A stretch of 64,000 nt of DNA from Lachnospiraceae bacterium. Its GTDB lineage: Bacteria; Bacillota; Clostridia; Lachnospirales; Lachnospiraceae. Both the position numbers and the translations under genes were made by a program. The stretch lies in assembly GCA_017526745.1 (NCBI GenBank), contig JAFXQX010000015.1:1-64000 (forward strand), read 5' to 3'. Shown here piece after piece: positions 7,678-13,895 of the stretch. Positions within the stretch are counted from its first letter, which is position 1; every line of letters begins with the position of its first letter. The notes under the pieces were generated by a model. The model saw only the letters and a program-made list of their open reading frames with translations. It searched no databases and was not told the DNA's origin.

Positions 7678-8502
7678 ATGGATAAAAAGAAAAGAACGCG
7701 TTTTCTTATCGTGATCGCCATAATACTTGCCGCACTTCTTGTGGGGGTATTTCTTACGGCTGATCCGCTAAAAGAAGAAGAGCCGATAAGGATCGTCATG
7801 AAGGATGCGGTGCTCCATGAAGAGGCGCAGGTAAACTTCCTCGGGATCCGCCCCGTCAACCCGGCAGTCATATCGGCGTATACGGTCACGGCGATCATAT
7901 TCGTTTTCGCTCTGTTTACAAGGCTGTTTGTGATCCCGAAGTTTAAGCACAACCCGGGAAGGTTCCAGTTGCTTTGCGAGCAGGCGGTCGGACTGTTTGA
8001 CGGCCTTGCCACATCCAACAGCCCGCACAGGCACAACTTTCTCGGAGCATATGTATTTACCGCGGGTACTTATATCTTCATCGGAACGATGTTTGAACTT
8101 CTCGGCGTGATGGCTCCCACAACCGCCGGAGGCCACATAGCGCTTCCCGCGCCTCTTGCCGATATAAACGGCGCGATCTCGATGGGCGTGTTCTCGTACT
8201 GCGTGATACTCTCCGGGGGGATAGCGGGCAATAAGGTAAAAGGCGTTCTTAATACCCTGAAGGATTTCTCACTTCCGATATCAATGAGCTTCCGTCTGTT
8301 CGGTGCGCTGCTTTCCGGTGCACTCGTCACGGAGCTCGTTTATTACTATATAACCACCAGTTTTGTGATCCCCGTGTTTGTTGCCGTTATGTTCACGATG
8401 CTCCATGCGCTCATCCAGGCGTATGTGCTGACGATGCTGACGGCTCTTTTCTATGGGGAAGTTTCCGAGACGCATACTGAGGCATCGTCGGAAGAACAGT
8501 GA
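7678..8502 (+). CDS. atpB: F1Fo ATP synthase subunit a
   Basis: Subunit a forms the two half-channels of the membrane Fo motor next to the c-ring. The 274-residue protein has a first membrane segment at residues 8-27, a further five or so segments, and the key stretch MSFRLFGALLSGAL, where Arg206 is the conserved arginine facing the c-ring carboxylate. It opens the operon atpB-E-F-A-G-D-C. No atpI precedes it; the gene upstream is purB. Gln/Ala-rich C-terminal helix (HALIQAYVLTMLTALFYGE) is typical of the family. Confidence 0.95.
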   Translation: MDKKKRTRFLIVIAIILAALLVGVFLTADPLKEEEPIRIVMKDAVLHEEAQVNFLGIRPVNPAVISAYTVTAIIFVFALFTRLFVIPKFKHNPGRFQLLCEQAVGLFDGLATSNSPHRHNFLGAYVFTAGTYIFIGTMFELLGVMAPTTAGGHIALPAPLADINGAISMGVFSYCVILSGGIAGNKVKGVLNTLKDFSLPISMSFRLFGALLSGALVTELVYYYITTSFVIPVFVAVMFTMLHALIQAYVLTMLTALFYGEVSETHTEASSEEQ

Positions 8503-8551
8503 GATAAAAAATACGACAGGAGAAAATATAATGACTAACGGAGGTAATGTT

Positions 8552-8911
8552 ATGAATCGTATCATGGTCAGGATCGCAGCAGTTCTTGCGATCGTGCTGC
8601 TCGTAGGAGCATTTGCAAAACCCGTTACCGTTCATGCAAGTGATGATGAGCAGGTTGCGATCGCGGCAATGTCGGATGAGGCGTCATTCGTTCATGACAA
8701 GGCGTGGGCAGCGGGAATAGTCATCGCTGTGGTTGCGGCAGCGGGCGCGCTCTCGATGGGTCTTGTCATATGGAAGACAATTGAAGGCATAGCAAGGCAG
8801 CCTGAGGCGGAAGGCAAGATAAGGACGGCGATGATGCTCGGACTTGTGTTCGTCGAGACGGCCATCATCTATGCGCTGATCGTGGCGATCCTCATAGTAT
8901 TTGTACTGTAG
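8552..8911 (+). CDS. atpE: F1Fo ATP synthase subunit c with signal-peptide-like leader
   Basis: Subunit c builds the rotating membrane ring. The c hairpin occupies the last 75 or so residues, with the ARQPEA polar loop and the ion-binding Glu102 in FVETAIIYAL. Ahead of it lies an unusual 45-residue extension, starting MNRIMVRIAAVLAIVLLVGAF and reaching VHAS, that reads as a cleavable signal peptide (AxA-like site) plus a short acidic spacer; ordinary c subunits are 70-90 residues. ATG 8552 has GGAGG eight bases upstream; ATG 8531, with AGGAG, would add seven residues. The Gln found in Na+-binding c subunits is replaced by Met, and two of the helix-packing glycines are Ala and Ser, so coupling to protons is more likely than to sodium, but this is only inference. 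Confidence 0.93.
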   Translation: MNRIMVRIAAVLAIVLLVGAFAKPVTVHASDDEQVAIAAMSDEASFVHDKAWAAGIVIAVVAAAGALSMGLVIWKTIEGIARQPEAEGKIRTAMMLGLVFVETAIIYALIVAILIVFVL

Positions 8912-8975: not shown

Positions 8976-9473
8976 ATGCCGCTTAACATTGATTGGCAGC
9001 AGATACTGCTGCACATGTTCAATCTGGTCCTTTTGTTTGGCATTCTCTATGTCCTTTTGTACAAACCCGTTCATGACTTTATGGAAAAGCGTGAAAAGGA
9101 GTACGAAAAAAGGGACGCCGATACAAAGAATGCTCTTTCGGATGCCGAAAAACTGAAGGCCGAATATGAGGCAAAGATCGCCGAGGCCGAAAAAGAAAAT
9201 GCCTTAGTAAGAGCCGAGATAAGTGCAAAAGCCGAGGCCGACAGGGAACGGATCATCAGCGATGCCCACGAAAGCGCCGCGAAGATCGTGGAAGATGCCG
9301 GCGAAAAGGCACGCATGGAGCACGACAGACTGATGGCGAGGGCACGCACGGAGATAGCCGAATATGCCTCAAAAGCAGCCGAGAAGATCGTCATGAAAGA
9401 AGGAAGCCTTACGGATGATTTTGACACTTTCTTTGAAAGCGTGAAGGACCAAAAGGATAATGGCAATGGATGA
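8976..9473 (+). CDS. atpF: F1Fo ATP synthase subunit b
   Basis: Subunit b is the peripheral stalk holding the F1 head to Fo. The 165-residue product has one N-terminal membrane helix (residues 9-29, [20 protein letters not shown]) followed by a long charged coiled coil rich in Ala, Glu and Lys, ending in the dimer region. Start ATG 8976 follows TTGGGAG. Its last 14 bases overlap the start of atpA, which leaves no room for atpH (delta), normally found between them. Its length is ordinary, so the missing delta part has not been moved onto b as in mycobacterial b-delta fusions. Confidence 0.93.
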
Positions 9474-11187
9474 GAAAAAGACTGCTGCTTTGTACAGCAG
9501 CGAGCAGCCGGCCGCAAGCGATCTTAAAAGACTGGCCGATTTTCTTCTCGAAAAATATCACGAGCCGATATCGATAGGCTGGAAAAAGGATCCGGATGTT
9601 ACATGCGGGTTCAGGCTTGTCGTGGGCTCTGACGTATATGACTGGAACAAACAGGGAAGGCTGCGCCAACTCCAGGATGCGCTCCTGTCTCTTGCCGGGG
9701 ACGGCGGTGACATCATCCCGCTCATTAAGGATACCCTTACCAACTGGACCCCTACGGTCATGATCAACGAGATCGGTACCGTAACGACTGTCGGTGACGG
9801 TATAGCCACGGTTTCGGGACTTGATGACGTAACATACGGCGAGATACTCCTGTTTTCCGGCGGGGTGCGCGGGATGGCACTTGACCTTCGCCGGAATGAG
9901 ACCGCATGCATACTGTTCGATCCCGAAGAGGAGGTCTGCGAGGGGAGCACCGTAAAGCGGACCGGAAGAGTCGCGGGAGTTCCCGTCGGCGACGCTTTTC
10001 TCGGAAGAGTGGTGGATCCGCTGGGCGTCCCGATAGACGGCCTTGACGAGATCATAGCGGACGGCTACAGGCCCGTTGAAAACGAGGCTCCGGCAGTCAT
10101 AGACAGACAGCCGGTAAATGTTCCTCTTGAGACGGGCATACTTGCGATAGATTCGATGTTCCCGATCGGGCGCGGACAGCGTGAACTGATAATCGGTGAC
10201 CGCCAGACGGGTAAGAGTACGATAATACTCGATACGATCATCAACCAGAAGGACAAGGACGTTATATGCATCTATGTGGCGATCGGACAGAAGACGAGCA
10301 CGGTCGCAAGACTCGTTGATACCCTGAAAAAACACGGGGCCATGGACTACACGATAGTCGTCAATGCGTCGGCCGCAGAATCTGCGCCTCTCCAGTACAT
10401 AGCTCCGTATGCGGGATGTGCGATGGGCGAGTACTTTATGGAAAAGGGCATGGATGTACTGATCGTATACGATGACCTTACGAAGCATGCGATCGCATAC
10501 AGATCGATAAGCCTTCTTCTGGAAAGAGCTCCCGGGCGTGAAGCATATCCCGGTGACGTTTTCTACCTGCATTCAAGACTTCTCGAACGCTCTGCGAGAC
10601 TGTCGGACGAAAAGGGCGGCGGATCGCTTACGGCGCTTCCGGTCATAGAGACTCAGGAAGAGGATGTTTCATCCTATATTCCCACAAACGTAATCTCAAT
10701 AACTGACGGCCAGATATTCCTGGCCGGCGGACTCTTCAGACTCGGACAGCGGCCCGCCATCAACGTGGGACTGTCTGTATCGCGTGTCGGAGGAGATGCC
10801 CAGACAAAAGCTATGAAAAAGGCAGCGGGCACGCTCCGCCTGGATCTGGCACAGTACAGGGAAATGGAGACGTTCTCCCAGTTTTCGGGTGACATGGATG
10901 AGGCGACGAAAAAACTCATCAGATACGGTGAGGGCCTCATGAAGATATTAAAGCAAAAACCCGCAAGCCCCCGAAGCCTTGTCGAGCAGGTGTTCATGCT
11001 CATCATCGCGACAAGGGATAAGTTTGAGAATATCGATCCTTCGGATATCGATGCAAGGATCGCAAAACTTACGGCAGATACGATGAAAAGGTGCCCCGAT
11101 ATAGTATTAAAGATCGAGAACGAGGGTACTATATCGGACGAAGACATAGTCAGGATAAAGGACGCCGCGGTGGCTGCATATGGCTGA
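9460..11187 (+). CDS. atpA: F1 ATP synthase subunit alpha fused to a delta-like C-terminal domain
   Basis: Alpha forms the non-catalytic sites of the F1 hexamer. The 575-residue product is about 60 longer than usual; the Walker A GDRQTGKS begins at residue 246, some 77 later than in E. coli. Residues 20-75 resemble the end of subunit delta ([13 protein letters not shown], then [20 protein letters not shown] followed by RQLQDAL, matching the GGxxxxxGxxxxDxSxxxxLxxL pattern). Next comes a normal alpha start ([24 protein letters not shown]) and the full alpha body ([37 protein letters not shown]). No separate atpH exists in the operon, so this appears to be a delta-CTD/alpha fusion without the delta N-terminal helical bundle. 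It overlaps atpF by 14 and atpG by 8 bases. Confidence 0.93.
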
Positions 11188-12073
11188 TATCAGAGAGATC
11201 AGATCGCGAATGAAATCCGTCTCGGATACAGAGAAGATCACAAAGGCCATGTACATGATCTCCTCGAGCAAGATGAGAAAAGCAAGGGCCGAGCTCGAAA
11301 GAACACGCCCTCATTTCGATGCGCTCAATAATGAGATCAAAAGGATATTCAGATCCAAGAGAAAGATCAACAGCCCTTACATGTATCCCGCTGACGGCTC
11401 ACACGATATACCCGGTGCCTACGCCTACATCGTGGTCACCTCGGACAAGGGCCTTGCCGGATTTTACAATCATGCGGTGATAAAAGAATTTGAGGACCAG
11501 CGTAACGATCATGAGAGCATGTATTTTATGGTAGGTGATTACGGGTGCAAATACTGCGATGCCCTCGGCATACCTTATGATGACAAGTTCAGGTTTTCGG
11601 CTGACAATCCGTCGATGAGGCAGACAAGGCAGATGGCCGAATATATCCTCTCTCTGTATGATGAAAAGGTTATATCGAAGATATTTCTGATATATACCGA
11701 TATGGTGAACGGGATATCCCAGAAGGCCAAAACGGTCAGGCTGCTCCCTTTTCACCGCAAGGATTTTTCCGATGAAAAGGATATCCCCGATGTGAAGTTT
11801 GATTTTTATCCGTCCGTTGAGGTCGTGCTTGATAACATCGTAAGAAGCTATGTGGCGGAGTATTTCTACAGTGCCCTTATCGACAGTTTCTGCTGCGAGC
11901 AGAGCGCCAGGATGAACGCGATGGATGAGGCCGACAGAAATGCAAATGAGCTTATGACTGCGCTGAACCTTGAATACAATCACGCACGCCAGGGTAAGAT
12001 AACAAGAGAGATCACGGAGATCGCAGCGGGCGCAAGAGCGCTGAAAAAGAAGAAAATGGCCGATCAGTTGTGA
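11180..12073 (+). CDS. atpG: F1 ATP synthase subunit gamma
   Basis: Gamma is the central rotor shaft turning inside the alpha-beta ring. The 297-residue protein starts [24 protein letters not shown] and ends in the helix [19 protein letters not shown], both diagnostic of gamma. The globular middle contains [13 protein letters not shown], the usual Rossmann-like start. The start overlaps the end of atpA by eight bases, pointing to coupled translation. Confidence 0.95.
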
Positions 12074-12093: not shown

Positions 12094-13478
<1,385 letters not shown>

Positions 13479-13479
<1 letters not shown>

Positions 13480-13895
13480 TGAATGAATTCACCCTTCATA
13501 TACTCGAAGCCGATGACGAGTATTTCAACGGAAAATGTGTTTCCCTCGTGATCCCGACAACCGAAGGCATGTACGGGATACAGGCCATGCATGAGAATTT
13601 CGTTGCGGCAATCGATATAGGTGTCGTAAAGTTCACGCTTCCGGACGGAACCAGGAAACATGCCGCCGTTTCAAACGGGATCGTCAAGGTGGAGAACAAT
13701 GAGGTGCTCATCCTTGTCGAATCCGCAGAAGACCCCGAAGAGATCGATGAGGCAAGGGCGAGGAATGAAGAGGAGATGGCAAAGGATATCCTGGCCGGAA
13801 AGAGCGACAGGCTGAACATGCGCGCCGCCAAGGGAATGCTCGCTCGAGCAGCCAACCGCCTTAAGATCAAGAAAAGATACGGCAAGTATTTGTAA
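13479..13895 (+). CDS. atpC: F1 ATP synthase subunit epsilon
   Basis: Epsilon sits at the foot of gamma and regulates ATP hydrolysis. The 138-residue protein has the beta-sandwich domain (FTLHILEADDEYF, GMYGIQAMHENFVAAI, AVSNGIVKVENNEVLILV) and a C-terminal helical hairpin rich in Glu, Arg and Ala. It starts on the A of the atpD stop (TAATG). It is the last gene of the ATP synthase operon; a T-run follows at 13913-13923 but without a strong hairpin. Confidence 0.92.

Follow-up and report, generated by a model that had tools for sequence, protein, structure and literature searches.

A delta C-terminal domain at the front of the alpha subunit in an F-type ATP synthase operon of Lachnospiraceae, a stepwise series of delta-alpha fusions, and a possible multi-stalk enzyme

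The window analysed here, a stretch of 64,000 nucleotides from a gut or rumen bacterium (contig 23 of genome G000), contains an F-type ATP synthase operon in which the first ~80 residues of the alpha subunit are the C-terminal domain of delta, followed by a normal alpha N-terminal helix. The N-terminal bundle of delta is lost from this operon, and the fused chain is colinear with an engineered chimera. We consider it reasonably probable that the operon specifies a whole second F1Fo-ATPase, with the b-binding domain of delta welded to alpha, and that this enzyme could take one to three b2 stalks and is probably H+-coupled. The fusion design is already in print and is not peculiar to this genome; while fusions of this kind have recently become known, their frequency in the family, their occurrence beyond it, the series of forms described below and a triple fusion are new.

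The gene order of the window operon is a-c-b-alpha-gamma-beta-epsilon, with all genes on the forward strand. Subunit a (atpB, 274 aa, 7678..8502; PF00119, E 6e-18) is followed by subunit c (atpE, 8552..8911), for which a 119-aa product starting from an ATG behind GGAGG was picked by eye within a longer frame, 8453-8911 (PF00137, E 9e-12 for that frame), and which begins with a signal-peptide-like N-terminal extension. The end of subunit b (atpF, 165 aa, 8976..9473; PF00430, E 6e-19) overlaps the start of the fused alpha (atpA, 575 aa, 9460..11187) by 14 nt. Because the alpha ATG at 9460 falls inside the end of b, a delta gene cannot fit between the two, as the initial annotation had stated. 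Downstream are atpG (gamma, 11180..12073; PF00231, E 4e-83), atpD (beta, 12094..13479; TIGR01039, 787 bits) and atpC (epsilon, 13479..13895; PF02823 and PF00401), the last with its C-terminal helical domain present. A separate delta with an N-terminal bundle was looked for in this operon and not found.

The match of alpha to TIGR00962 (698 bits) starts at residue 84, behind the ~80 extra N-terminal residues. Of these, residues 7-75 correspond to positions 103-172 of the 172 positions of the Pfam OSCP/delta family, so that only the C-terminal part of the profile is matched. The score was 24.6 bits (E 3e-5; cut-off 22.3) with alpha residues 1-98, 20.2 bits, slightly below the same cut-off, with the whole 575-aa chain, and 23 bits in the genome-wide search. 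The domain is kept in aligned relatives (sets of 32 and 21), and profile comparison with hhalign related it to canonical delta with a probability of 96.5 (E 8e-10) for 21 relatives against 15 canonical deltas, covering columns 106-186, and of 97.5 (E 6e-12) for a 25-member profile. The best PDB sequence match of the window domain is an engineered chain, 9JC1_I (E 0.0023), followed by PS3 delta (E 0.0097). With the profile of 21 relatives these values became 1.7e-6 and 5e-6, and seven further delta or b-delta chains fell below 0.001, with unrelated proteasome chains turning up from E 0.29. The family profile is colinear with chain I of 9JC1 over 13-573; in the profile alignment the engineered linker exceeds the family's junction by 3 residues. 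A structural model of the complete alpha chain (mean pLDDT 77.5) folds residues 8-78 as beta-alpha-beta-beta-beta-alpha and residues 85-95 as a helix, at the place expected for the alpha N-terminal helix; confidence in the N-terminal domain is no more than moderate (pLDDT 75-82 for residues 11-60 and 53-65 for 61-100). In a Foldseek search with this model the three 9JC1 alpha chains rank first (569 columns, TM 0.81-0.85 by query), ahead of the further alpha chains listed, a rank that mirrors length coverage as well as fold; 9JC1 was absent among the 50 matches listed by VIA-align. The profile matches and the model place the delta C-terminal domain at alpha residues 7-78 (9478..9693, forward strand) and the retained alpha N-terminal helix, which lines up with the N-terminal part of alpha chains of known structure, at residues 84-96 (9709..9747, forward strand). 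The fused domain, the missing bundle and the retained helix had all been proposed in the initial annotation, and the present searches bear them out.

The same annotation had also reported that there was no atpH, which is wrong for the genome as a whole. Two F-type operons are present in G000 (2.6 Mb, 99.9% complete), and the one on contig 32 is canonical, encoding a, c, b, a full delta of 184 aa (E 1.3e-43), an alpha of 501 aa, gamma, beta and epsilon. The possibility that the organism has no delta is ruled out by this gene. The search for atpH elsewhere therefore did recover a full gene, a result that the initial annotation had named as a refutation, but the fusion is not refuted by it, as the gene sits in a second F-type operon. 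Rnf is present in G000, and an Ech-like large subunit (PF00346) was looked for in the genome and not found, so that no dedicated H+ pump was identified there. V-type subunit I was also looked for in G000 and not found.

The fusion is common in the window's family and is also found beyond it. Among 150 genomes sampled from the family, at least 32 have a fused alpha, with 21 truncated forms lacking the bundle, 10 full-length delta-alpha fusions and one fusion of b, the delta C-terminal domain and alpha. A separate delta is encoded elsewhere in 21 of these 32 genomes (G000 and 20 of the 31 others; that of G075 is split over two contig ends), and none was seen in the remaining 11. In nine of the 32 no delta bundle was seen, the fused frame giving the genome's single OSCP match, and a fused enzyme therefore cannot always borrow a canonical delta; in G137 this match continues past two stops across the end of b and is not a bundle. 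V-type subunit I was matched in 9 of the 11 genomes in which no separate delta was seen (8 above the Pfam cut-off, G109 below it), weak lone V-type matches in G008, G011 and G022 being discounted, and neither a separate delta nor V-type subunit I was found in G142 and G137 (81% complete). As 30 of the 32 fused genomes have matches to a separate delta or to V-type subunit I, we reject the fused enzyme as the sole rotary ATPase of its hosts. Pairing with a V-type enzyme is not specific to the fusion either, since 27 of 33 comparison genomes (32 with a type-2 operon, as defined below, and separate delta, together with G065) have V-type too.

A search of named GTDB genomes with one degenerate pattern gave 297 stretches, 274 of which are relatives, and the best 80 are all truncated fusions (3 clipped by contig ends); these 80 loci were chosen by similarity to the window and are uninformative on proportions. 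Searching their DNA on both strands with the delta profile gave no match outside the alpha frame. The 21 family and 80 named truncated rows make 101, or 98 distinct operons as 3 are shared, and in all of them the distance from the b stop to the delta domain is at most 84 nt, which leaves no room for a bundle. Of these operons the nearest to the window is L151, 93% identical over the domain. Titles of the named loci include Lachnospiraceae, Oscillospiraceae, Ruminococcaceae, Mogibacterium, Acholeplasmatales and others, and some strain names suggest isolates (Lachnospiraceae FE2018, XPB1003, NE2001, AC2031 and AB2028; Anaeromassilibacillus senegalensis An867). Across 398 genomes of the phylum, 11 candidates were examined, of which 10 are fused (G411, G169, G312, G212, G337, G228, G419, G532, G288 and G366) and G269 has a separate delta, so that at least 11 of the 398, G000 included, have a fused alpha.

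The window operon falls within a "type-2" clade of F-type operons that is distinct from the canonical ones (64 rows, SH-aLRT 100) and consists of 33 operons with separate delta, 10 full-length fusions, 20 truncated fusions and the triple fusion. Within this clade delta can be followed from a gene of its own, by way of the full-length fusion, to the truncated one, and b-delta-alpha occurs once. In the alpha tree with broader outgroups (81 rows) the separate forms are basal, the full-length fusions L099 and L066 stand apart, and the other 33 fused rows form one group with modest support (84/88). The fewest changes on this tree are 3 for fused against separate and 7 for bundle present against absent, the starred branches alone forcing 4 for the truncated state, and close sisters can differ by the bundle (full L052 and truncated L055, 99/98). 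A tree of alpha and beta with close outgroups placed truncated forms first with the separate-delta forms nested, an order that would need a regained bundle; it is probably due to long branches, and we trust the alpha-only trees with broader outgroups more. As the groups tested were picked after viewing the first tree, the p values are optimistic: a single loss of the bundle is disfavoured and not firmly rejected (AU p 0.054), and the data do not reject a clade of the type-2 separate forms (p 0.754). They do reject a clade of the full-length fusions (p 0.013) and one that unites all 25 fused rows (delta lnL 229, p 2e-28), so that fusion arose more than once. The fusions of families f31, f49 and f119 and of G071, one of the 21 truncated family rows, are placed elsewhere in the tree, outside type-2. 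The bundle of the full-length fusions is nearly as conserved as that of separate deltas, with ratios of bundle to C-terminal domain conservation of 0.70, 0.85 and 0.79 (identity bins of 5, 16 and 24 pairs) compared with 0.86, 0.84 and 0.86. The trees were built without L104 (partial alpha), the tests of bundle loss, separate forms and full-length forms without L118 and L105, the test of all fusions without L118, and the alpha tree that places fusions outside type-2 without L240 and other alphas shorter than 330 residues.

Several relatives have unusual architectures. In G068 (L098 2667-5000), b, the delta C-terminal domain and alpha lie in one 787-codon frame, giving 778 aa from the first Met of b, and no other F-type b above the Pfam cut-off was found in the genome; as its genus is represented by a single genome, this triple fusion may be an error. 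G071 (L105 2110-3081 and 3060-4832) has a normal b, a second, long b-like protein (324 aa) whose end looks by eye like two repeats resembling the delta C-terminal domain, and its separately evolved fusion of the delta C-terminal domain with alpha. In G065, b is fused to the delta C-terminal domain without a bundle (L118 2760-3452), and gamma and beta lie in one 767-codon frame (L118 4981-7281), perhaps through a lost stop or a sequencing error. Type-2 operons L101 and L103 (G099 and G110) have a tandem pair of c genes, and G141 has three F-type operons (L044, L069 and L108): a truncated fusion, a type-2 operon with separate delta and a canonical one.

The c subunits of the two operons in G000 differ in their ion sites, with Q and ET in the canonical copy and M, at the Q position, and ET in the window. 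The helix-1 position scored here aligns with the Na+ ligand Gln32 of Ilyobacter. It is Q in 10 and E in 5 of 15 canonical operons, and I in all 32 type-2 rows with separate delta and all 10 full-length rows. All 87 c rows of the window type (84 distinct; 10 from the tree and 77 from named loci in which a c gene is present) have M. Among the remaining 11 truncated rows I occurs in 9, L in 1 and Q in 1, the row of G071. Na+ binding requires this ligand in known cases. As the type-2 c subunits lack it, H+ is the probable coupling ion of type-2 enzymes and Na+ that of the canonical copy, a reading based on the ion-site motif. By a simple rule, the signal-peptide-like N-terminal extension of c is present in 85 of the 87 window-type rows, which include the window and the c genes of L151-L230, and in 0 of 70 others.

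According to Ueno et al. 2025 (PMC12229609), removing the bundle of PS3 delta and fusing its C-terminal domain to alpha gave an enzyme with up to three b2 stalks and an a subunit with each, with 2.2x a and 1.8x b per gamma and an H+/ATP ratio of 5.8 rather than 3.0. In cryo-EM, particles with three stalks were extremely rare, a result that the authors explain by detachment. In their view it is the bundle, lying on the threefold axis, that restricts the head to one stalk. The initial annotation had reasoned by the same logic that three alphas would bring three anchoring domains. The window protein has the parts of the engineered chimera in the same order, and three docking sites are its simplest reading. 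Each of the three alphas would then present its own docking site for a b2 stalk and, without the bundle that normally sets the one-stalk limit, the head could take one to three of them. An a subunit would come with every b2 stalk, which would raise the ion/ATP ratio and allow work at low ion-motive force. The cell might use the enzyme for low-force synthesis or for ATP-driven H+ export. We infer multi-stalk assembly for the window enzyme, and an enzyme with a single stalk and two idle docking sites would look alike in sequence.

Such an enzyme is the main rival to the reading of three docking sites: the covalent link would do nothing more than take over the anchoring role of the bundle, with one b2 and one a per head and two delta domains idle. 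In its favour, every operon of the set examined that lacks the bundle has the C-terminal domain covalently attached to alpha or b: the bundle is missing in 0 of 48 separate deltas (delta match of 148-169 residues) and missing in the 21 truncated alpha fusions, one b-delta-alpha and one b-delta operon. The ten full-length fusions, which keep a conserved bundle, also speak for it, and three bundles cannot share a single axial site. However, the engineered counterpart averages about two stalks (PMC12229609), and nothing was seen in the truncated operons to limit stalk number; we regard a simple tether as possible, if somewhat unlikely. The full delta of a host's own genome might instead join the fused head and fix it at one stalk. 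The presence of a separate delta in G000 and 20 of the 31 other fused genomes would allow this, but 11 of the 32 show none, and in G000 each alpha belongs to its own complete operon, which makes a mixed head quite improbable. A chance fusion through a missing stop codon or an assembly error is barely conceivable and, for the window, is refuted: 98 distinct operons, drawn from many assemblies, share the domain and the junction, and the delta bundle is gone rather than simply read through.

We tentatively suggest that delta has been dismantled repeatedly and stepwise, yielding multi-stalk, low-gear ATP synthases that work beside a single-stalk Na+ F-type enzyme or a V-type enzyme in many gut and rumen Clostridia. 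The proposed order is from separate delta to full-length alpha fusion to loss of the bundle, with b also welded on in one genome. If this is true, the triple fusion of G068 would hold each head to three b chains, neither more nor fewer, and no stator of this kind is known. Should natural fusions carry two or three stalks, the ion/ATP ratio would not be fixed by the c ring alone and could be two to three times above textbook values. What is a one-paragraph prediction in PMC12229609 becomes a large, testable group, often with a canonical control in the same cell and with full-length-fusion intermediates in close relatives.

Among the closest known systems is the engineered FoF1 of Bacillus PS3 (9JC1), in which delta residues 105-178 precede alpha, the bundle is gone and the alpha N-terminal helix is kept. 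The window shares the one-frame fusion and has neither a bundle nor a delta gene in the operon, and the whole chain is colinear. It differs in being natural, in a junction that is not a Gly-Ser linker, in keeping the epsilon C-terminal domain and in its c subunit. The Discussion of PMC12229609 names natural fusions (Acidaminococcus fermentans, UniProt G4Q3K6 and A0A1I2C5T3) and predicts multi-stalk enzymes; these proteins, known here by description, resemble the window in having a bundle-less delta fused to alpha in an ATP synthase operon. In contrast to the present data, the Discussion presents them without a second operon, a series of forms or their spread. No other report of natural delta-alpha fusions was found in literature covered by title and start of abstract, a scope without most subscription papers and without bioRxiv preprints, and the same holds for the full-length stage, the triple fusion and a wide occurrence in Lachnospiraceae. 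F0F1-ATP synthase has been reported in 62 of 62 rumen butyrivibrio genomes (PMC4478896), and the available part of that paper does not mention the fusion. The canonical F1Fo enzyme shares all other subunits and the gene order with the window, and differs in having a separate full delta, one per head. The mycobacterial b-delta fusion keeps the bundle and has one copy per head, and delta is there fused to b rather than to alpha. It (PDB 7JG5) resembles the window in placing the delta C-terminal domain on another stator subunit, and its end matches the window domain weakly (E 0.051; 2e-5 by profile). A layout of this type is rejected for the window, as the initial annotation had held, since the 165-aa b has no OSCP match and ends before the delta domain. 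The N-ATPase is likewise a second F-type operon without a delta gene, with the order atpDCQRBEFAG. The window alpha scores 615.8 bits against a TIGR03324 cut-off of 750.5, which rejects this assignment, and the gene order of the window is the standard one and not that of the N-ATPase.
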